Assembly (NCBI GenBank): GCA_025360005.1
Contig: JANYDA010000063.1
Coordinates: forward strand, 1 to 64,000
DNA length: 64,000 nt
DNA from: Fibrobacteria bacterium
GTDB taxonomy: Bacteria; Fibrobacterota; Fibrobacteria; UBA11236
Direction of reading: 5' to 3'
The translations under genes were made by a program, and so were the position numbers. A model generated the notes under the pieces. That model saw only the letters and a program-made list of their open reading frames with translations. It did no database searches and was not told where the DNA came from. This document shows, one piece after another, positions 39,875-63,755 of the stretch (position 1 is its first letter; the number at the start of each line of letters is the position of its first letter).

Positions 39875-42349
39875 TCAACCGCCCAGGACTTGCATGCGCC
39901 TGACAAGCGATTTTCCGCCGGAAGCCAGCTGCACCAGATACACTCCCGGTTGCAGGGCCGCGTCCAGGCCCAGGCGCTGGGGGCCCTTGGCGGCATGGAC
40001 AACAGTCAGGTCGTAGCGCTTGCTTCCGCCGGCGGAGTAGATCCTCACACTGTAGCCGCCCGCCTGCGGCAGGTAGAATGATAGGGAGCCCGGGGCAAGC
40101 GAGTACAATCCCATGGGCTTCTCCGCGGCGATGTTGGCCGCAACCCCGCTTACGATTTGGCAGACATGGCTCGCCGATCCGCCCAGCTTGGTGAACTCCG
40201 CCGTCACCGCCGCATCCTGCGCATGCCAGTTGGCCAGATCGTTGACCCGTTGCATCTTCATCCCGGTGTACATGGCGTCCATGAGGGCGGCGTAATTCTT
40301 CCAATCGCAATCGGCTTTTCCCATGGCGTCGCGCGCGGTGACGGTTTGGCCCGCGGCCTTGTATGCCGCTCCCCGCAGTTTCTCGGCGTAGTAGAGTCCC
40401 AACCAGGCCAGGGCCTTGATATTGTCGAGGTCGATGCGCAATTCGCTGCCGGACGCCGCTCCCGACCCGCTAATCAGATCCAGCGCGCCCTGCGAGGCGG
40501 TCTGGATCTCATCCGCCACCTTATATCCGGTGCGCCCGTTGGCGCCGCATTTGCCCGCGGCCGTGTTGGCGATGGAGCACATGGTCGATCCGTTGGTGGG
40601 CTGGACGCCGGCCATCTCATCGATGGTTTTGAAGCCGCTGCTGGAGTGGCAGGCCTCCGGCCACCAATGGTAATCCAGGTTCCAGGTGCCTTGCACAATC
40701 TCCGTGAACAAGGGCACGCCCTGCGAGGCTTTGCCCCAGGCGGAAAAGAGGGTAGCGGCGGAGATACCCGGATATTTCCCGGCCATCTTGTTTATGAATA
40801 CCGCATCCGGGGTGTTGGGGTTGTAGCTGAGCCGGCCCCAGAGCATTTGCGTGTACCAGGTCCGCCGGATCTCCAGATCGCCCTTGAAGAGCGCGTCCTT
40901 GCTGGCGAATACGCGCGTATTGACCCAGCCATCGGACCCATAGAAGAAACCCTGGATATATTTGTCCTTGTCCGGGAAGCCGAGCAAGTAAGCCTTCGCG
41001 AAAGCGGGATCGCCCCAATGCAGCATGAAGAAATCCTCGTTGCGGACCTCCAACCAGGTCTTCAATCCCGCCTTGGTCAAATCGGCGGGGATGTTCCCGT
41101 CCACGGTGGTTATCCAGGTAGGATCCGGGGCGGCATACATATGGGCCTTGGAATACTTATAGGACATGTCGAGGCGGACGTTGGGAAGGTTGAAGAGCGG
41201 TTGGAAATTGGAAACCACCGCCGGCCCGCCGGTCTGGTGATAGCGGTGCACGAAGGTGACTTTCCGCTCGGGATGGGCTTTGGCATAGTCGTACATGCCC
41301 TGGCCGATGGTGGACCACATCCATTTCTCCTCGCCGTCCGACGAGAGGTTTCCCATGTTCTCGCCGGAGGTGACGCCGAACCCGGTGAGGTCCGGATAGG
41401 TTTCCAGCAACTGGGTCATGCACTTGCGCATGTAGGTGACGGTGGCGGCGTTGGTGGGGCTGTTGTCGATTCCGTATTTGCCGGTGGCCCCGTCGGTGTA
41501 GATGCTCCAATCGATGATGTAGATCTCGAAACCCCGGTCGCGTCCGTAAGCCATGACCTTTTTCCAGAAAACGATTTTCTCATCGATGCTCATGGTCTTG
41601 GTGAACCCGTTGAAGCCTTTCACGTCCTGGAGCGCCACGTTGGGGTACTCCGGCATGTTCAGGAGCGCGGGGAAAGGATGCAGATTCCACAGGGAAAGCA
41701 CGTTGTAGCGATGGCGCGCCATTTCATCGAACCAGGCCGACCAGAAGGTGAAGTCCCAGACGTGGGGAATGGCGTCCTGCATCACCGTTCCCGGAAAGGT
41801 ATTGGCGGCGGTGCCGGCCCCGTAGTAGGTGGGGCAGCGCGCATCGAGCGGGATGTTGAATTTGATCCCGCGCCTCTTGATGTAAGGGGATTCCTGGGTA
41901 TTGTAGCTTCCGGACAAACCGTCCGTGCGGATGTTCTCCGCCAATTGCAGGCCGCCGTACATGGCGCCGTTGGCGTCCCCGCCCAGCGCCCAGAACCCGG
42001 CCTGCGTTTGCGTCGTGGTGCGCAGGGCGTAGGCCTGTTCCCCCAGGCCCGTCACCGCGTTTCCGCCCTGGGCGGCCAGTTGCGTGGCCACCATCGCGTC
42101 GGCCGCGGTGGCGATCACGATTTTCTTGTTGCCGTAAGCCGCGCCCAGTTGCGCCAGGCCGAACGATTCCACGCCTATGCTCCGGGCTTGCAGAGCGGCC
42201 TTTACATCCCCGGCCGCGAAAGCGACTTGCGCCACCGTGCTATCGTAAAACAGGCCCACGGTTTCCCCGTAGGAAACGGATGCCATTGCCAAAGGTCCTA
42301 CCGCCAAGGCCCACGCCAATGCGAAACCGGGAATACCGCCATGCCTCAT
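39875..42349 (-). CDS. Secreted GH67/GH20-like glycosidase with C-terminal sorting-type domain
   Basis: I start at the ATG at 42349, preceded by GGGGGCG; ATGs at 42361 and further up are alternatives. A signal peptide (residues 1-25, ending ASVSYGE) precedes an N-terminal GH20b/GH67N-like domain (KKIVIATAADAMVATQ, GFWALGGDANGAMYGGLQLA). A TIM-barrel-like middle follows (FDEMARHRYNVLSLWNLHPF, YGRDRGFEIYIIDWSIY, LTGFGVTSGENMG, VTFVHRYHQTGG). A helical region and a C-terminal tail of 75 residues (YSVRIYSAGGSKRYDL, LQPGVYLVQLASGG) resemble a T9SS-type sorting domain. It may be an alpha-glucuronidase relative; acid residues in SGENMG and EVRNED are candidates. Substrate unproven. Confidence 0.7.
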   Translation of the reverse strand: MRHGGIPGFALAWALAVGPLAMASVSYGETVGLFYDSTVAQVAFAAGDVKAALQARSIGVESFGLAQLGAAYGNKKIVIATAADAMVATQLAAQGGNAVTGLGEQAYALRTTTQTQAGFWALGGDANGAMYGGLQLAENIRTDGLSGSYNTQESPYIKRRGIKFNIPLDARCPTYYGAGTAANTFPGTVMQDAIPHVWDFTFWSAWFDEMARHRYNVLSLWNLHPFPALLNMPEYPNVALQDVKGFNGFTKTMSIDEKIVFWKKVMAYGRDRGFEIYIIDWSIYTDGATGKYGIDNSPTNAATVTYMRKCMTQLLETYPDLTGFGVTSGENMGNLSSDGEEKWMWSTIGQGMYDYAKAHPERKVTFVHRYHQTGGPAVVSNFQPLFNLPNVRLDMSYKYSKAHMYAAPDPTWITTVDGNIPADLTKAGLKTWLEVRNEDFFMLHWGDPAFAKAYLLGFPDKDKYIQGFFYGSDGWVNTRVFASKDALFKGDLEIRRTWYTQMLWGRLSYNPNTPDAVFINKMAGKYPGISAATLFSAWGKASQGVPLFTEIVQGTWNLDYHWWPEACHSSSGFKTIDEMAGVQPTNGSTMCSIANTAAGKCGANGRTGYKVADEIQTASQGALDLISGSGAASGSELRIDLDNIKALAWLGLYYAEKLRGAAYKAAGQTVTARDAMGKADCDWKNYAALMDAMYTGMKMQRVNDLANWHAQDAAVTAEFTKLGGSASHVCQIVSGVAANIAAEKPMGLYSLAPGSLSFYLPQAGGYSVRIYSAGGSKRYDLTVVHAAKGPQRLGLDAALQPGVYLVQLASGGKSLVRRMQVLGG

Positions 42350-42727: not shown

Positions 42728-44578
42728 ATGAACGCAAGGGAAGCGAGTAATCTGCTACGGGCGGGCCGCCGGATAAACGGCAGAAGGGTCGGCAAGCGGA
42801 TGCAGTGGCCGGCGTTGGGAACGGCCGTTTTCCTGGCGATGATGGGACCGGGTTCCGCGCTGGCGCAGGGCAGGTTCAGCATCGGCAATTGCCCGGACGT
42901 GATGGAAAGCCAGTTCAAATACGTGCCCCTGGTTGGTAAGGCCACCAGCGCGCAGACCAAGGCGCTGGCCATCGATCCCTCCCTCTCCGAACCCATTCAC
43001 ATGGCTTTCGATGCGCAACCGGGCGGCAAGGTGGACGTCTATTTCACGCAACGCAACGGCACCGTCAAGAAATTCGCCGGCGCTACCAATACGTTGTCCG
43101 TCCTCGGCCAGATCAACGTGACCAACAGCGGCGAGATGGGCATGACCGGCATCGCCCTGGATCCCGGCTTCAAGACCAACAATTACTTGTGGCTGTTCTA
43201 CGCGCTCGCCGGCCAATTGCATCTTTCCCGTTTCACCCTTACCGCCGGGCAGATCACCTCCGCCACGGAGAAGCCCATCCTCACCTACCGCAAGGTGAGC
43301 AATTCCCATATGGGCGGCGCCTTGGCCTTCGACTCCAACGGGGACCTATGGATTTCCACCGGCAACGACGCTTCCGATTATCCGCATGCCTACGATGAGA
43401 ACAGCGAAAACGGCAGCAGCGAAGCTTCCTCCGCCAACATGAACGATTTGCGCGGAGGCATCCTGCGCATCCATCCGGACAATTCCGTCAAAGGCTATTC
43501 CATCCCGGCCGGCAATTTCGGCGAATACTGGTCCAAGTATTTCAATGGCAAGGGCGATACCGCTTTGGGCAGGGAGTATGCGGATCCCACCCGGGTCAAG
43601 CCCGAGCTGTTCGTCAAAGGCACGCGCAACGCCTACAATATCGCGGTGGATACCGCCAAGCATTGGGTGGCCTTCGGCAGCATCGGCATCAACGTGACCA
43701 CATCGATTTCGGAAGCGCATTTCCTGCTCACGCGTCCCGCCTTCATCGGCTATCCGTATTTCGCGGGAGGCTTCGGCACGGAACCGGGCACGGGCTATTA
43801 CGAGTTGTGGTCCGGGGCGGGGGCCTCCACCTTCAGCGCCGCCCATCCCGGATTGACGGAGAGCAACACCGCTCCCGTGAACAATTCCAAGTGGAACACG
43901 GGTCCCAAGCGATTGCCGCCCGTGACTCCCGGTATGCACTCCTACCTGCGCGGCACCACCGGCGGGGCGGCCGTGACCGGATCCTTTTACCATTATGATC
44001 CCGCTTCGCCTTCCCCCATCAAGTTCCCGCCCCATTTCGACGGCGTCTGGTCCATCACCGATTGGGTCCAGAACGACAACATCGCCAAGCCCTCCGGGGG
44101 AGGCTTCAAAGGCGTGAAGATCTTCAAGGTCAAGCCCACGGGCGACGGCTTGCTGGACTCGCTGAAATGGTTCAGGAACTTCGGCATCACCGGTCCCCTG
44201 GACATGCAGTTCGCGCCCGATGGGGCCATCTACGTGCTCAACTACGGCCCCGCCTATTTCGGTACCACGGCGGAAACCAAGCTGGCCCGCATCGAATACA
44301 CGGGTGCCTGCCATCCCACCGGCGCCGATTATGTGCGGCAGCCTTCCCAGCGCGAGCCCTCGCGGGCCAATGGCTCGCGCCTGACGGTGAACCGCGAAGG
44401 CGCGTACACCCTTACCATCCGGGATATGCGCGGGCGCGTATTGGCCAGCCGGACTGGCTCGGGTCCCCGGACCTATTCCATGCGGGAATTGCTGCCCGCT
44501 TACGCGCGGAGCGGCCTGCTGATGGTCGCCCTTTCCGGCGAACAAGGCACCGAACGGTTCCGGATCCTGGCCGAATAG
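42728..44578 (+). CDS. Secreted PQQ-type sugar dehydrogenase with C-terminal sorting-type domain
   Basis: I start at the ATG at 42728 after a G-rich ribosome-binding region; the frame can extend to a GTG at 42707. The n-region is long and basic, then MQWPALGTAVFLAMMGPGSALAQ ends the signal peptide. The propeller is of the glucose/sorbosone dehydrogenase type: FDAQPGGKVDVYFTQRNGTV, TGIALDPGFKTNNYLWLFYA, HMGGALAFDSNGDLWISTGN, RGGILRIHPD, FVKGTRNAYNIAVD, GAIYVLNYG. The last 60 residues (EGAYTLTIRDMRGRVLASRT) form a T9SS-like tail. A di-haem cytochrome gene follows 30 bp downstream, a plausible electron acceptor. Confidence 0.85.
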   Translation: MNAREASNLLRAGRRINGRRVGKRMQWPALGTAVFLAMMGPGSALAQGRFSIGNCPDVMESQFKYVPLVGKATSAQTKALAIDPSLSEPIHMAFDAQPGGKVDVYFTQRNGTVKKFAGATNTLSVLGQINVTNSGEMGMTGIALDPGFKTNNYLWLFYALAGQLHLSRFTLTAGQITSATEKPILTYRKVSNSHMGGALAFDSNGDLWISTGNDASDYPHAYDENSENGSSEASSANMNDLRGGILRIHPDNSVKGYSIPAGNFGEYWSKYFNGKGDTALGREYADPTRVKPELFVKGTRNAYNIAVDTAKHWVAFGSIGINVTTSISEAHFLLTRPAFIGYPYFAGGFGTEPGTGYYELWSGAGASTFSAAHPGLTESNTAPVNNSKWNTGPKRLPPVTPGMHSYLRGTTGGAAVTGSFYHYDPASPSPIKFPPHFDGVWSITDWVQNDNIAKPSGGGFKGVKIFKVKPTGDGLLDSLKWFRNFGITGPLDMQFAPDGAIYVLNYGPAYFGTTAETKLARIEYTGACHPTGADYVRQPSQREPSRANGSRLTVNREGAYTLTIRDMRGRVLASRTGSGPRTYSMRELLPAYARSGLLMVALSGEQGTERFRILAE

Positions 44579-55468: not shown

Positions 55469-55498
55469 AAAAAAAACCGGAGAGGTCACCCCCTCCGG
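55469..55498 (-). terminator. Rho-independent terminator of the polyglycine repeat gene
   Basis: On the minus strand, CCGGAG ... CTCCGG (55498-55493 with 55482-55477) forms a stem followed by eight T (55476-55469). It lies 31 bp beyond the stop of the CarboxypepD_reg gene and in the right orientation for it. Confidence 0.88.
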
Positions 55499-55529: not shown

Positions 55530-56984
55530 TCAGTTTTGCGATTGCAGCAAGAGGCGCTGTCCCGGCTTCACGTTCTGGGGCATCACCACTCTGCCGCTGC
55601 CGGGAGCCACCGGTACGCGGCCCAGCAGGCCGCCGTCGGCGGACCATACCAGAATGGCGCGGACCGGACTCGCGGCGTCCAGGTCCACAACCATGCGGGT
55701 TCCCACCCAATGGGAACGCAGGGACAAGCCCCGCCCCGCTCCGGGCGATACCAAGGTGGTCGGGGAAACGAGCGCGAAATCGGCGATGCCGGTTTCCCCG
55801 GCGGCCAGGTTCAGGTTATTGCTTTGCTCGGTCTGGAACCCTGTCATGGAGACGCTGACGCGGTAGGCCCGGGGAGCGAGCTTGGTGAAAGCAAAGGCTC
55901 CGTTTGCATCCGTGAGCATGGTATCGAGAGCATTTCCATTACCTCCTCCTCCTCCTCCGCCCCCGCGGATCTGGAAAAGGATCACGCGCACATTGGCCAT
56001 GGGTGCATGCGTCGCCCTATTCGTCACCACTCCCTTGAGGGTAGCGGTAGTATCCCCGGTCGCCATGGCGGTCAGGGCCAAGTCCACAGTGGTTTTGAGA
56101 CCCCCGGCCACGGCCACGCTTCCCATTACCGCGGTGCTGAATCCGGATGAACTTACCGTGATGGTATAGTTCGCCTGGTTGGCTACGCTGTCAAATGAGA
56201 ACGTGCCTTGCGCATCAGTCATGACCGTATCCGGCCTGCCCCCGAAGCCTCCTCCTCCCCCGCGCATCAGGATGACGCGCGCGCCCGCGATGGCGGACCC
56301 GTTGGCCGCATTGGTGATCTTACCGGCGACGGATCCGGGTCCTACCGGCGCGGCCACGGTGAAATCCTCCCTGGTGGTCTTGGCGGCCGTTACCGCCACG
56401 CCGTTGCGCGTGGTTGTCACGAATCCGGTGGCGGAAACCTGGAGCGAATAATTCCCGGTGGAGATGCTGTCGAAGGCGAACGTCCCTTGGGCATCGGTCT
56501 TGGCGGAATCCAGAGCGAATCCACCCCCTCCGCCGCCTCCCCCGCGCCGTAAGATCACCAGGGCCCCTGCGACGGGCGTTCCGGGAACCCCGCTGGTAAC
56601 GGTACCGGAGATGTTACCCTTGCCGGCCGTCGATCCGCCCGCAGCGGCCAAAGAGACATTACTGGTGTAGGTTCCCGTGGCGGAGGCGACATTGACGGCG
56701 CCATTCCCGTTGTCATAACCGGTAGCGGAGACAAGCAGGCGGCGAAAACCGGTGCTGTCGGTAGTGAAGGTATATTCTCCTTGCGCATTGGTGGTGGTTG
56801 AATCAAGCCGGGTTCCGCCCCCGCCCCCGCCCCCTCCGCCACCGCGGGTTAAGACTACTTTGGCGCCCGCCACAGGAGCGGCGGCGACGCCGGTCCCGGT
56901 GGTGACTTTACCCGTGATGGTGGCCGCGAACAATGCGGCCGGAAACAGCATCATCGCAAAAAATAGATTCATCCGCTTTTTCAT
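55530..56984 (-). CDS. Secreted protein with four CarboxypepD_reg repeats carrying polyglycine loops
   Basis: The 484-aa protein has a signal peptide (residues 1-20) with AGAGGA upstream. Four tandem beta-sandwich repeats follow (about 21-112, 120-210, 215-305, 310-405). Each has the form G-x-V-x(n)-P-V-A-G-A-x-V-h-L-x-R, then a glycine run (10, 8, 5+2 and 8 Gly), then L/P-D-(S/T)-x2-T-D/N-A-Q-G-x-F. Glycine codons are mixed, so the runs are held at protein level. A C-terminal domain of about 75 residues (GRGLSLRSHWVGTRMVVDL, VWSADGGLLGRVPV) looks like a sorting-type tail. Probably a surface or adhesion protein. Terminator at 55469. Confidence 0.85.
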   Translation of the reverse strand: MKKRMNLFFAMMLFPAALFAATITGKVTTGTGVAAAPVAGAKVVLTRGGGGGGGGGGTRLDSTTTNAQGEYTFTTDSTGFRRLLVSATGYDNGNGAVNVASATGTYTSNVSLAAAGGSTAGKGNISGTVTSGVPGTPVAGALVILRRGGGGGGGGFALDSAKTDAQGTFAFDSISTGNYSLQVSATGFVTTTRNGVAVTAAKTTREDFTVAAPVGPGSVAGKITNAANGSAIAGARVILMRGGGGGFGGRPDTVMTDAQGTFSFDSVANQANYTITVSSSGFSTAVMGSVAVAGGLKTTVDLALTAMATGDTTATLKGVVTNRATHAPMANVRVILFQIRGGGGGGGGNGNALDTMLTDANGAFAFTKLAPRAYRVSVSMTGFQTEQSNNLNLAAGETGIADFALVSPTTLVSPGAGRGLSLRSHWVGTRMVVDLDAASPVRAILVWSADGGLLGRVPVAPGSGRVVMPQNVKPGQRLLLQSQN

Positions 56985-57655: not shown

Positions 57656-58849
57656 TCACGGCAGCTCCTGTACCTGCCAGCCTTTCGACCCGAAGCGCAA
57701 ATCCCTTTCCACGAAGGTCCATACCACCAGCTTTTTTCCTTGCAGCAATTCCCCGCGCCGCGCCAATTGCTGCCGCACCACGGTGGATGCGCCGCCGTCA
57801 TTGACGATAGAGGCCAGCGGCCGGTTGAGGCGATAGGCCACATGCGAGATGATGCCGGCGCTGCCGGGCGCATCCGTCTGGTAGATGCGCGAATAGCTGT
57901 CGCCCAGCCAAAGGATGGTGGAAGCGGGATCGTCCTGATAGGGTTTACCCGTTTTCGCGTCCAGGATCTGGGTGGCCGGCACGGATTCTTCCGGCCAGAT
58001 TTTGCGGCGGTCCGGCACCTTGGTCATCTCCGCGATGTCGCCCCAGCGGTTCACCGTCGTGTCCTTGATCATATAGCGCGGGGTGAACACTATCGAGTCG
58101 CGCGGGCCCAGTGCGGCGGCGGTGTCCGGATCGGGGATCATCTGCTTGATGCGCCCGGCCAGGGCTTCGGCCGCCACCTCCATGCCCTGCGGGGTCCAAT
58201 GGGTATCGCGCTTAAGGTAAAGCTGGGGCGCGCCGGCGGCCTTGGCGTCCAGCAGGGGATGGAACAGGTCGGCCACGTTGAAGCCGCGCCTTTTCAGATC
58301 GTCCAGCAAGGCCAGGGTTGGGGAGGCGGGCTGCCCTTGGACGCCATGCCATAGCTTTTCCGGATAGATGGAAGGCTTGCCGGGGATGGGCACCAGCAGC
58401 AGTTCGATGCCGCGCGCCTTGAGGCGATCGCGGAAATCCTCCATTGCCACCAGGGGATTGCGCGGGTTCACGCGCTTGCCCGCGATCAGGGTATCGAAGG
58501 TGCCCTTGTAGAAACGATCGCTGGCGTAAGTGGGTTGCAGCAGGTAGTCCACGTCCTGGTTGTAGAAGAGCCAGTCGCCCTCGCCTTTGACGGACTTGGG
58601 CGCCATCTCTCCGAAAAGATCGTAGCGTAACTGCAAGGTTACCGGGCGCAGCCATTTGGCGAAGACGCTGCGGTCCTTGGAATTGTCGTCCCAGCGGTGC
58701 AGGTTTTCCTTGCTGGGGATTTTGCGCAGCAGGTCGAACACGTGCGGCGCTTCCTTGTCCACCACGGCTTCGTGCCCGGCCTGGATCAGGGGAAAGCCCG
58801 CGATCACGGCGAGCAGGGCGAAAGCGAAGGTCAATTCCAGTTTACGCAT
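57656..58849 (-). CDS. AlgJ/AlgX-like SGNH acetyltransferase-associated protein
   Basis: The 397-aa protein has an N-terminal signal anchor (LELTFAFALLAVIAGFPLI). The catalytic marks of the AlgX/AlgJ SGNH-like fold are present: DTHWTPQG (Asp-x-His) and the nucleophile Ser in WLGDSYSRIY. Other typical blocks are GEGDWLFYNQD and LLLVPIPGKPSIYPEKL. Such proteins transfer acetyl groups to exopolysaccharide in the periplasm, taking them from an MBOAT partner, which is encoded 6 bp upstream on the same strand. The polysaccharide is unknown; no alginate biosynthesis genes are in the window. Confidence 0.88.
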   Translation of the reverse strand: MRKLELTFAFALLAVIAGFPLIQAGHEAVVDKEAPHVFDLLRKIPSKENLHRWDDNSKDRSVFAKWLRPVTLQLRYDLFGEMAPKSVKGEGDWLFYNQDVDYLLQPTYASDRFYKGTFDTLIAGKRVNPRNPLVAMEDFRDRLKARGIELLLVPIPGKPSIYPEKLWHGVQGQPASPTLALLDDLKRRGFNVADLFHPLLDAKAAGAPQLYLKRDTHWTPQGMEVAAEALAGRIKQMIPDPDTAAALGPRDSIVFTPRYMIKDTTVNRWGDIAEMTKVPDRRKIWPEESVPATQILDAKTGKPYQDDPASTILWLGDSYSRIYQTDAPGSAGIISHVAYRLNRPLASIVNDGGASTVVRQQLARRGELLQGKKLVVWTFVERDLRFGSKGWQVQELP

Positions 58850-58855
58850 GCGGCC

Positions 58856-60289
58856 TCAGAACTGGAAGTAGAGGAAAGGGTTGAAGGATTGCGTATACAT
58901 CATCACCACGCCCGCCAGGAACAGCGCGAAAGCCACCGCGAACTTCCCCCAGGAGAGACGCTTGCCGAATTCGTAGCTCTGGAATGGCTGGGCGACGGCC
59001 ACGGCGCAGACGGCCATGTTGATGAGATCGTGCCGGTCGTAGATTTCCGCTTTGAGCAGATCCGCGAAAGGGCCGGGATGGCCCAGGCCGAACATGCTGC
59101 CCAGGTAGCTGAAGGCATGCGGCAATCCGTCCGCGCGGAAGAATACCCAGGTAATCAGGACGACCCCGAAAGTCACCCCCACCCTCAGCCAACGCGGGGA
59201 GTTGGCGTAGAAGGGTTGCTTGCCGCTCCAGCGTTCGATGCCGAGCATGGTGCCGTGGATGCCGCCCCAGAAGAGGAATTGCCATTGCGCCCCGTGCCAT
59301 AGCCCGCCCAGGAGCATCACCAGCGCCAGGTTGATATAGGTGCGGCGTTCGCCTTTGCGGTTGCCGCCCAGGGAGATGTAGAGGTATTCGCGCAGCCAGG
59401 TGGACAGGGAGATATGCCAGCGGCGCCAGAAATCCGTGATGCTGTCCGCATGGTAGGGCGCGTTGAAGTTGCGGATCAGCTCGAAGCCGAACAGCATACC
59501 CAATCCCAACGCCATCACCGAGTAGCCGTTGAAATCGAAATAGATCTGGAAGGCGTAGGCGAGCACGCCCCACCACGCGTCGATGGCGTGCGGCGCTTGG
59601 GCGCCGAAGGCCGCATCGGCAATGCGGCCCACCGGATTGGCCAGCAGGATTTTCATGGCGAAGCCCAGGAAGAAAAGCATCACCCCGCGCGAGAACAGGG
59701 AGAGGCTATGGGTGCGCGAATGCAGTTGCAGGGAAAGCACGTTGTAGCGCAGGATGGGCCCGGCCACCAGTTGCGGGAACAGGGAGACGAAACAGGAGAA
59801 GTCCGCGAAGGATTTCACCGGCCGTTCGCCCCGGTAGATATCGATGATGTAGCTCATGGAATGGAAGGTGTAGAAGGAGATGCCGATGGGGAAGGCGATT
59901 TGCAGTACGCTGAAGGTGGGGTGCCCCACGGCCGCCAGCAGGTGGTTCAGGTTCTCCTGCGTGAAAACGCCGTACTTGAAGAGGCCCAGCAGCCCCAGGT
60001 TCATGCACATGGAAACGATCAGCACCAGCTTGCGGCGGCCCGACGGCACATCGTCCCGGCCCAGGTACAGGCCGAACAGGTAATCCGCCACGTTGGTGAA
60101 CATCATGGGCAGCACGAACCAGGGTTCGAACCAGGAGTAGAAGATATAGCCCACCGCCGTGAGCCAAAGGTTCCGCATCCAGTACCGGGATTTGCCCGGC
60201 TTGGGATCCCGCTGGTAGGGGATCAGGTAATAGACCAGCAATACCAAGGGCAGGAAATAGAAGAGGAAGACGTCTTCGGTGAAAACCAT
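58856..60289 (-). CDS. MBOAT-family O-acyltransferase (AlgI-like)
   Basis: The 477-aa polytopic membrane protein starts VFTEDVFLFYFLPLVLLVYY and has about ten helices. MBOAT marks are FPIGISFYTFHSMSYIIDIY, FVSLFPQLVAGPILRY, INLALVMLLGGLWHGAQWQF with the catalytic His and FWRRWHISLSTWLREYLYI. It should carry acetyl groups across the inner membrane for the AlgJ-like protein encoded downstream. It starts 21 bp after the TolB-like gene; the three form one leftward operon. Confidence 0.93.
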   Translation of the reverse strand: MVFTEDVFLFYFLPLVLLVYYLIPYQRDPKPGKSRYWMRNLWLTAVGYIFYSWFEPWFVLPMMFTNVADYLFGLYLGRDDVPSGRRKLVLIVSMCMNLGLLGLFKYGVFTQENLNHLLAAVGHPTFSVLQIAFPIGISFYTFHSMSYIIDIYRGERPVKSFADFSCFVSLFPQLVAGPILRYNVLSLQLHSRTHSLSLFSRGVMLFFLGFAMKILLANPVGRIADAAFGAQAPHAIDAWWGVLAYAFQIYFDFNGYSVMALGLGMLFGFELIRNFNAPYHADSITDFWRRWHISLSTWLREYLYISLGGNRKGERRTYINLALVMLLGGLWHGAQWQFLFWGGIHGTMLGIERWSGKQPFYANSPRWLRVGVTFGVVLITWVFFRADGLPHAFSYLGSMFGLGHPGPFADLLKAEIYDRHDLINMAVCAVAVAQPFQSYEFGKRLSWGKFAVAFALFLAGVVMMYTQSFNPFLYFQF

Positions 60290-62173: not shown

Positions 62174-63265
62174 CTAGCTCCCCTGGGCCTTGGATTGCGG
62201 CGCTGACAGCCGTTTGTCCTTGGCTTGGGAAATATCCGGCCGGCCGCGTTCGGCCCCTTCGCGGCCTACTGCCGTCCCGTCAAGGCGGTATTCCGTTTCC
62301 CCGCTTTGCAAAGTCATCGCCCCTTGTTCCGTTCGGAGCCAGGGACCGCTGAACGCGGCCGCATGGCGCGGCGCGGAAACGCTGATGGCGGCGCTGCCGG
62401 TGGGGAAGAATTTATTCGCCTGGATCACGGCCACGGCCCGGCTGGCCCATTCCGGCTGCCCCTTGTCGGCCTTGTAATGGTGATCGTCGAGCATGGGGAT
62501 GCCTTGGGAATTCACGGTGGCGGAAAATGGAAGCTTGCCGGGGATCAATTTGATCTGGGATAGGATGATGGCGGGGAGAGGCAAGGTGGGCGCGAAGCTC
62601 CCGGACGCGCCGGCTTCGTACTCGCCCATGATGAAAGGCAATTCCGGCATGCCCAGATCGCGGCGGAAGAATCTCGCCAGGCTGGAAATGTCGTCCGAGA
62701 AAGCGTTGCAGACGGTGGCGTTGGTGCGCGTAGCCTCCACCGTGCCCAGCATGCACAGGATGCCGCCCAGGGTTACGTCCTTCTGCACGTCCTTGGCCGC
62801 GGTGACGATTTGGTTGTACAGATAGGTGGAGTCCCAGTACCTGTTATCCGAAGGGTCCAGACCGGATCCGTTGTTGCCGGTATTCATGCCCCGGCATGTG
62901 GACGAGAGGCTGGCGTTGGTGACCACTCCGAAATAATAATCGGGGTAGGCCGCGGCCATGGCTTTCAGGAACGGCATGCCGGGACCTCCGGACCCGTTGC
63001 CGGAAAGGCCCGTGGTCTTGCTGTTCACCGGTTCCTTGGCCAGCACCCATTGCTTGGTCGCGATGGGATAGTTCCAGCCGTGCGGGATCGCGACCGGATC
63101 CGAATGAGGATAATCAATCCCGGCCATGTTGGAATGGCCGATGAGGATATAGACGACGAATTTCTCCTTGGGCACATTTACCGTTCCCAGCATCACGGCT
63201 TCGGTCGGCGCGGCGCGCAGCAGGGCTGCAAGGCATAGGCAATGGTATGCTCTTTTGATTGCCAT
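62174..63265 (-). CDS. Secreted sialate O-acetylesterase-like SGNH esterase
   Basis: I start at the ATG at 63265, with GGGAG 9 nt upstream. A 363-aa protein with a signal peptide (YHCLCLAALLRAAPTEA) results. The nucleophile Ser lies in ILIGHSNMAGID (family form GQSNM). The block GGILCMLGTVEATR is where GxWxQGExD is expected but has diverged: the Gln-Gly-Glu is replaced. The Asp-His pair is probably MLDDHHYK. It may be a CE6-like or sialate-type acetylesterase acting on acetylated polysaccharide. The C-terminus (about 280-363) is a beta-rich tail. It is convergent with the upstream lipoprotein, 14 bp apart. Confidence 0.8.
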   Translation of the reverse strand: MAIKRAYHCLCLAALLRAAPTEAVMLGTVNVPKEKFVVYILIGHSNMAGIDYPHSDPVAIPHGWNYPIATKQWVLAKEPVNSKTTGLSGNGSGGPGMPFLKAMAAAYPDYYFGVVTNASLSSTCRGMNTGNNGSGLDPSDNRYWDSTYLYNQIVTAAKDVQKDVTLGGILCMLGTVEATRTNATVCNAFSDDISSLARFFRRDLGMPELPFIMGEYEAGASGSFAPTLPLPAIILSQIKLIPGKLPFSATVNSQGIPMLDDHHYKADKGQPEWASRAVAVIQANKFFPTGSAAISVSAPRHAAAFSGPWLRTEQGAMTLQSGETEYRLDGTAVGREGAERGRPDISQAKDKRLSAPQSKAQGS

Positions 63266-63755
63266 GGTATATTCTCCCGATAATGTTTGGTCCTGGAAAA
63301 TCCACCGCCCGTGGGCCCGGAGTCCCATGATCCGGAATGCAGTCTTCTTCCTAGAAATGCCGTTCTCGTCGCCCCAATGTATCGCAATGTAGGGTAGAGG
63401 TTGTAGCCATGCCCGGCATTTCCACCTGAGAAACCGGGCCAAATGCGCCTAAGCGATGCGCCTGGATGCGGGCGGAGGCGTCCCAAGAGGTCTATATTAC
63501 CATTTGGGTTATCGATTACCGGCCTCTTTATGGGGGTGCCGGGTCCGCTAAAGGCTGAATCGAGGCGCGTTTCCCTCCCAAAGGCGGGGAATTATCTTTG
63601 CTACGCGTCCGTTCACTCAGGTAAACGGAATTTTATCGCGGGTCCGGAATCGTAGCCCCGGTTTTCGCGGAGCAGCGGATATTGAGGCGCGGGGAGCCGT
63701 TCCGGAGCGGGGCGTTGAAGGGTATCAGCTTTATGGCTATAGAGGCGCAGCGATC
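63266..63755. other. Divergent intergenic region
   Basis: No gene is supported in this 490-bp stretch. Short frames on both strands lack starts, ribosome-binding sites and recognisable families. Promoters for the esterase (left) and the lipoprotein (right) must lie here, but I cannot point to strong boxes. Confidence 0.4.

Follow-up and report, generated by a model that had tools for sequence, protein, structure and literature searches.

Introduction

In the available part of a 2025 review (PMC12871550), D-S/T-A/L/V/I/M/T is given as the general O-glycosylation motif of Bacteroidota, and a similar motif enrichment, as enrichment only, is reported for Fibrobacterota; the same part leaves open the question of whether O-glycosylation of the Bacteroidota type extends to this phylum. 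The available text of the F. succinogenes envelope proteome (PMC6851124) lists CarboxypepD-like lipoproteins, and no mention of glycine loops was found in that text. Here, we describe a gene of a Fibrobacteria bacterium whose product carries four CarboxypepD_reg repeats, each with a run of glycines in the same loop. The gene lies in a window of 64,000 nucleotides, which is the whole stretch of DNA that was analyzed. At a rough probability of 45%, the protein is best explained as an exported stalk whose flexible loops precede, and perhaps expose, O-glycan acceptor sites. The most useful lead is the conserved acceptor-like D-S/T site after the loop and not the glycine itself.

Architecture and genomic context

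The Pfam model of CarboxypepD_reg (PF13620) matched the 484-residue protein along four stretches with 173.6 bits (cut-off 32.3), and in the genome search repeats 2-4 each passed the model alone, repeat 1 reaching 28.9 bits (Table 1). An AlphaFold2 model based on 17 sequences (mean pLDDT 80.1, pTM 0.38) contains four beta-sandwiches and a C-terminal beta-domain that is folded and reached a pLDDT of 82.8 when modelled alone; the glycine runs appear in it as loops of low confidence. The single domains of this model are credible, whereas their arrangement is not because of the pTM of 0.38. In a Foldseek search with the whole model, the best PDB matches were mostly surface proteins and pilins, complement components among them, with TM-scores that are low owing to the domain arrangement; a search of the PDB by sequence gave no match at 0.01. 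Prealbumin-like and CNA-B are presumably the domain family names of the stalk proteins matched by Foldseek. The gene product would be an exported stalk, probably on the cell surface, in which a signal peptide is followed by four beta-sandwich repeats of the transthyretin-like type and then by a C-terminal domain; it may have a role in adhesion.

Table 1. Positions of the gene, its domains, glycine runs and loop-end triplets in the window.
Feature	Position	Strand	Basis or remark
Gene, 484 aa, four CarboxypepD_reg repeats and C-terminal beta-domain	55530..56984	-	ORF, Pfam, structure model
Signal-peptide-like N-terminus, residues 1-20	56925..56984	-	by eye from sequence
CarboxypepD_reg repeat 1	56649..56921	-	PF13620 match
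Glycine run 1, 10 residues (48-57)	56814..56843	-	pLDDT <50 at 50-55
D-S-T (residues 61-63) following loop 1, putative O-glycan acceptor	56796..56804	-	modification inferred
CarboxypepD_reg repeat 2	56355..56612	-	PF13620 match
Glycine run 2, 8 residues (148-155)	56520..56543	-	pLDDT <50 at 150-154
D-S-A (residues 159-161) following loop 2, putative O-glycan acceptor	56502..56510	-	sequence
CarboxypepD_reg repeat 3	56070..56333	-	PF13620 match
Glycine run 3, GGGGGFGG, 5 G (242-246), then F and GG	56238..56261	-	pLDDT <50 at 244-248
D-T-V (residues 252-254) following loop 3, putative O-glycan acceptor	56223..56231	-	sequence
CarboxypepD_reg repeat 4	55770..56042	-	PF13620 match
Glycine run 4, 8 residues (341-348), contains GGA x5	55941..55964	-	pLDDT <50 at 342-347
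D-T-M (residues 354-356) following loop 4, putative O-glycan acceptor	55917..55925	-	sequence
C-terminal beta-domain, residues 409-484, T9SS type A sorting-domain-like	55533..55760	-	profile comparison, structure model
Intrinsic-terminator-like hairpin and T run, directly downstream of gene	55477..55498	-	sequence

Upstream of the gene, an AlgX-like SGNH protein, an MBOAT acyltransferase and a sialate-esterase-like protein are encoded at 57656-58849, 58856-60289 and 62174-63442, respectively (all on the minus strand), a set of genes that points to a locus for polysaccharide O-acetylation; the AlgX-like SGNH and MBOAT genes are syntenic in G002, another genome of the same genus. Elsewhere (G000:C58:58500-66500, L063), about twenty CarboxypepD_reg-like repeats were found in one open frame of 2859 aa, and no long glycine run was present among those of its loops that were aligned.

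Glycine runs in the loop between strands B and C

All four glycine runs occupy identical alignment columns, in the loop that joins strands B and C, and their starts are spaced by 100, 94 and 99 residues. The strand ahead of each run ends in arginine (VVLTR, VILRR, VILMR and ILFQIR), in agreement with the initial annotation, which had placed the runs at one loop of every repeat, right after a hydrophobic-x-R strand. Its statement that each repeat has 7-10 glycines holds for three repeats, the third having five glycines before a phenylalanine and two more. The longest run in the rest of the protein is two. When the sequence was shuffled 20,000 times at constant composition, the runs did not exceed nine, a length that came up once, and none was ten. 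Similarly, the longest run in 135 other repeats (40 from the same genome and 95 from relatives) was three. The mean glycine fraction of the loop segment was 0.47 in the four repeats of the window, 0.29 in genus homologues (17 rows, one of which is a stray unrelated ORF), 0.11 in the other repeats of the genome (n = 40) and 0.10 in relatives (n = 95). In a tighter filter set (39 instead of 40 repeats of the genome, 16 instead of 17 homologue rows) and with the last four residues of the loop left out, the fractions were 0.60 in the window, 0.40 in genus homologues, 0.14 in the other repeats of the genome and 0.09 in a sister genus, where Ser/Thr/Ala instead accounted for 0.41 of the loops.

Each of the four runs contains a stretch with pLDDT <50, which, together with the glycine enrichment of the loop in genus homologues, supports the suggestion of flexible loops at a fixed position. 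The same annotation had raised a polyglycine-II-like patch. In that reading, or in one of ordered spikes, the loops would pack against each other or between molecules to form an adhesive, ice- or polysaccharide-binding face. Four runs at near-equal spacing would suit such packing, and a single-chain model leaves room for it between molecules; however, the runs are predicted to be disordered, each of the separate domains has a single run, the long runs are not conserved even in an orthologue of 65% identity, those of the closest relatives being shorter and interrupted by other residues, and Gly gives way to Ser/Thr/Ala in the sister genus. Structure prediction of the four repeats, which had been proposed as a check, yielded, for a single chain, four beta-sandwiches with glycine loops that are predicted to be disordered. 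The patch was rejected as the leading reading and appears highly improbable. Protease-resistant or elastic spacers that let the stalk pass a secretion channel or bend, the triplet being unrelated, are improbable as well: the loops are flexible and of low confidence in the model and the fold resembles surface stalks and pilins, but the loops are internal to the domains and would therefore provide no hinge from one domain to another. It is more likely that the loop is a flexible spacer than new structural material.

At the DNA level, glycine codons in the runs are mixed, as had been pointed out earlier, and the conclusion then drawn from it, that the runs are not simple slippage, was overstated. 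In three of the runs, Tandem Repeats Finder detected short tandem arrays (GGA x5.7, a perfect hexamer x3.3 and a 9-mer x2.1). Compared with the syntenic orthologue in G002, two loops differ by four codons, and the other two are equal in length and changed in composition. Repeat slippage probably contributes to the runs, given the arrays in three of them and the four-codon length differences. In addition, GGA makes up 28 of the 82 glycine codons of the gene, whereas three neighbouring genes mostly use GGC.

Distribution and lability of the loop

Homologues with the same layout were found in four of five same-genus genomes, and further ones in other families of this phylum. With its G002 orthologue the protein shares 62-65% identity, compared with 79-91% for the flanking genes; the gene has diverged more quickly than the syntenic genes beside it. 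The initial annotation had named close homologues without the runs as a point against its reading: the G002 orthologue has runs of 5, 4, 6 and 4 glycines, and the loops of the remaining three genus homologues are Gly-rich and mixed with other residues. An assembly artefact was rejected, as homologues from other genomes are Gly-rich at identical columns. In a tree of 20 repeats calculated without the loop, repeats 1, 3 and 4 each formed one side of a branch, repeat 2 being unresolved; the runs were therefore not copied among repeats 1, 3 and 4 within the species, and the spread of one glycine loop among repeats is unsupported.

Across 167 genomes of the phylum, the pattern AGAxVxLxxGGGGG matched only the genome itself (three sites, all in this gene) and G091, a member of another class, and the backward control of the pattern matched none of the 167 genomes; the pattern, being strict, does not pick up the remaining genus homologues. 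The protein of G091, of the same layout, has five repeats; four of them have Gly-rich loops, and VDSAI follows three loops (repeats 2, 4 and 5). A relative in G092 (58% identity to the G091 protein) has shorter glycine loops. In family f7, some loops of the G083 homologue have GGG to GGGGG, and that of G081, from the same genus as G083, is mostly without them. The Gly-rich loop is present in three families (f1, f7 and f9) and labile in each, and is thus a labile but recurrent feature of the phylum.

Several further observations were made in these searches. A second CarboxypepD_reg repeat protein with many D-S/T-phi motifs adjoins the glycine-loop homologues of G091 and G092 (L334, L353 and L335, L352, respectively), and a homologous match with one in-frame TAG was found at G007:C71:7108-7887. 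A protein look-up in genome contigs returned 23 stretches, none of which was confirmed. A DNA-pattern scan of genome contigs gave at least 116 stretches; from the 80 loci covered among them, 81 in-frame matches were examined, nearly all of which appear to be out-of-frame or unrelated GC-rich DNA; among the matches listed, L227 and L232 had weak repeat-HMM matches (E 5e-4 and 9e-4).

A possible account of these data is neutral loop expansion, in which any small residues are tolerated, GGN repeats vary by slippage and substitution in a GC-rich gene, the glycine has no function and D-S/T caps strand C. It would agree with the tandem arrays, the four-codon differences at two loops, the shorter or mixed loops of the closest relatives, the Ser/Thr/Ala of the sister genus and the lower identity of the protein compared with its flanks. 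On the other hand, all four repeats are enriched at one and the same loop only, such enrichment is seen again across three families of the phylum, no run above three occurs in the 40 other repeats of the genome, and two loops kept their length while their composition changed. In the preferred reading of a stalk with flexible loops, the B-C loop of each repeat would be a flexible, fast-evolving spacer of small residues, Gly-rich in the genus and lengthened or purified to glycine runs in the species, probably in part by in-frame codon repeats. The runs look like a lineage-specific lengthening of a flexible loop on a known domain, real and unusual. The earlier remark that no described family has this feature met no contradiction in the literature searched, most subscription journals lying outside that search.

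A conserved D-S/T triplet at the end of the loop

The triplet D-S/T-(A/I/L/M/V/T) occurs at the end of the loop, at the start of strand C, in all four repeats of the protein, in 16/16 repeats of genus homologues and in 41 of 53 sister-genus repeats (46/53 for D-S/T alone), compared with none of 39 other repeats of the genome (1/39 for D-S/T alone); these counts are not independent, the repeats being related by descent. It was also present in 12/28 other genus repeats, a mixed set that includes six-domain paralogues in which only part of the repeats keep it, and in 2 of 14 farther repeats. A hydrophobic residue at the third position of the triplet is also common in strand C of unrelated repeats, which leaves D-S/T as the truly distinctive part. 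In the G091 protein, repeat 3 lacks the triplet although its loop is Gly-rich, and repeat 5 carries the triplet but no glycine run.

In the whole protein, all eight D[ST] pairs are followed by A/I/L/M/V/T, and shuffles reached eight in 2 of 10,000 cases, whereas the motif was not significantly above shuffles in the homologues of G083, G081 and G010 (56, 174 and 904 of 1000 shuffles as high, respectively). The protein carries the motif of Bacteroidota-type O-glycoproteins, and its N-terminus points to a noncytoplasmic location. Within the genome, the motif was enriched 2.19-fold over the shuffled expectation in 20 of the 22 proteins with over-cut-off T9SS sorting tails, and 2.01-fold in 34 signal/TM-like ORFs versus 1.16-fold in 80 others, these ORFs having been picked crudely from twelve 20-kb stretches with a simple hydrophobic N-terminal pattern as the signal peptide.

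The most likely role of the loop would be to keep the D-S/T site at its end exposed for O-glycan attachment, which would make the protein a glycan-decorated surface stalk; a structural role of D-S/T as a turn or strand cap would conserve it as well. It is rather unlikely that the loop represents a recurrent module of secreted CarboxypepD_reg stalks in the phylum, namely a swappable flexible spacer (poly-Gly in some lineages and Ser/Thr/Ala in others) before a D-S/T O-glycan acceptor, with at least one glycan per repeat. If true, Bacteroidota-type O-glycosylation would have in this module a defined family of substrates beyond the Bacteroidota. The triplet offers a concrete, repeat-wise candidate substrate for asking whether this type of O-glycosylation extends to the phylum.

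Secretion

The genome encodes SprA (TIGR04189, E 4.5e-152, over the cut-off) along with the sorting tails mentioned above. The sorting-domain model TIGR04183 gave no match at E<=1 to the 484-aa protein or to its tail alone, and the tails of the G010 homologues scored 15.2 and 18.4 bits, under the cut-off of 23. At the level of the family, the tails matched 19 T9SS tails of the genome with an hhalign probability of 73.7% (P 2.9e-5), and a Foldseek search with the tail found T9SS complex chains weakly (8gl8_D, E 0.06; 8gl6_D, E 0.18) among many Ig-like folds. Export by T9SS is likely, and the C-terminal domain probably directs the protein to this system. Two more matches similar to T9SS tails, under the curated cut-off, were seen in other ORFs of the window (39893-40081 on the minus strand and 44378-44566 on the plus strand).

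Comparison with known systems

Several described systems share parts of this organization. The Kustd1514 anammox S-layer glycoprotein (NF052345) matches partially (E 1.7e-23), but with 82 bits against a cut-off of 1400, and the likeness is at the level of shared domains only. CNA-B/prealbumin-like stalks of pilins and adhesins (BcpA, 3rkp; TIE protein, 6fwv) are likewise surface proteins with tandem beta-sandwiches, at about 8-14% identity, and differ in that the protein described here has a T9SS-like tail. With T9SS cargo recognized by TIGR04183, it shares a signal-peptide-like start, a C-terminal beta-domain and a genome with SprA and many tails, whereas its own tail is not recognized by that model, and the similarity is confined to the family-level profile. 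Its four stretches belong with CarboxypepD_reg (PF13620), from which they are set apart by B-C loop runs of 5-10 glycines. Finally, O-glycosylation is described for Bacteroidota, whereas here the motif is known from sequence and the glycan is putative; as in that system, the motif is enriched in the secreted proteins of the genome, and in this protein it ends each of the glycine loops.
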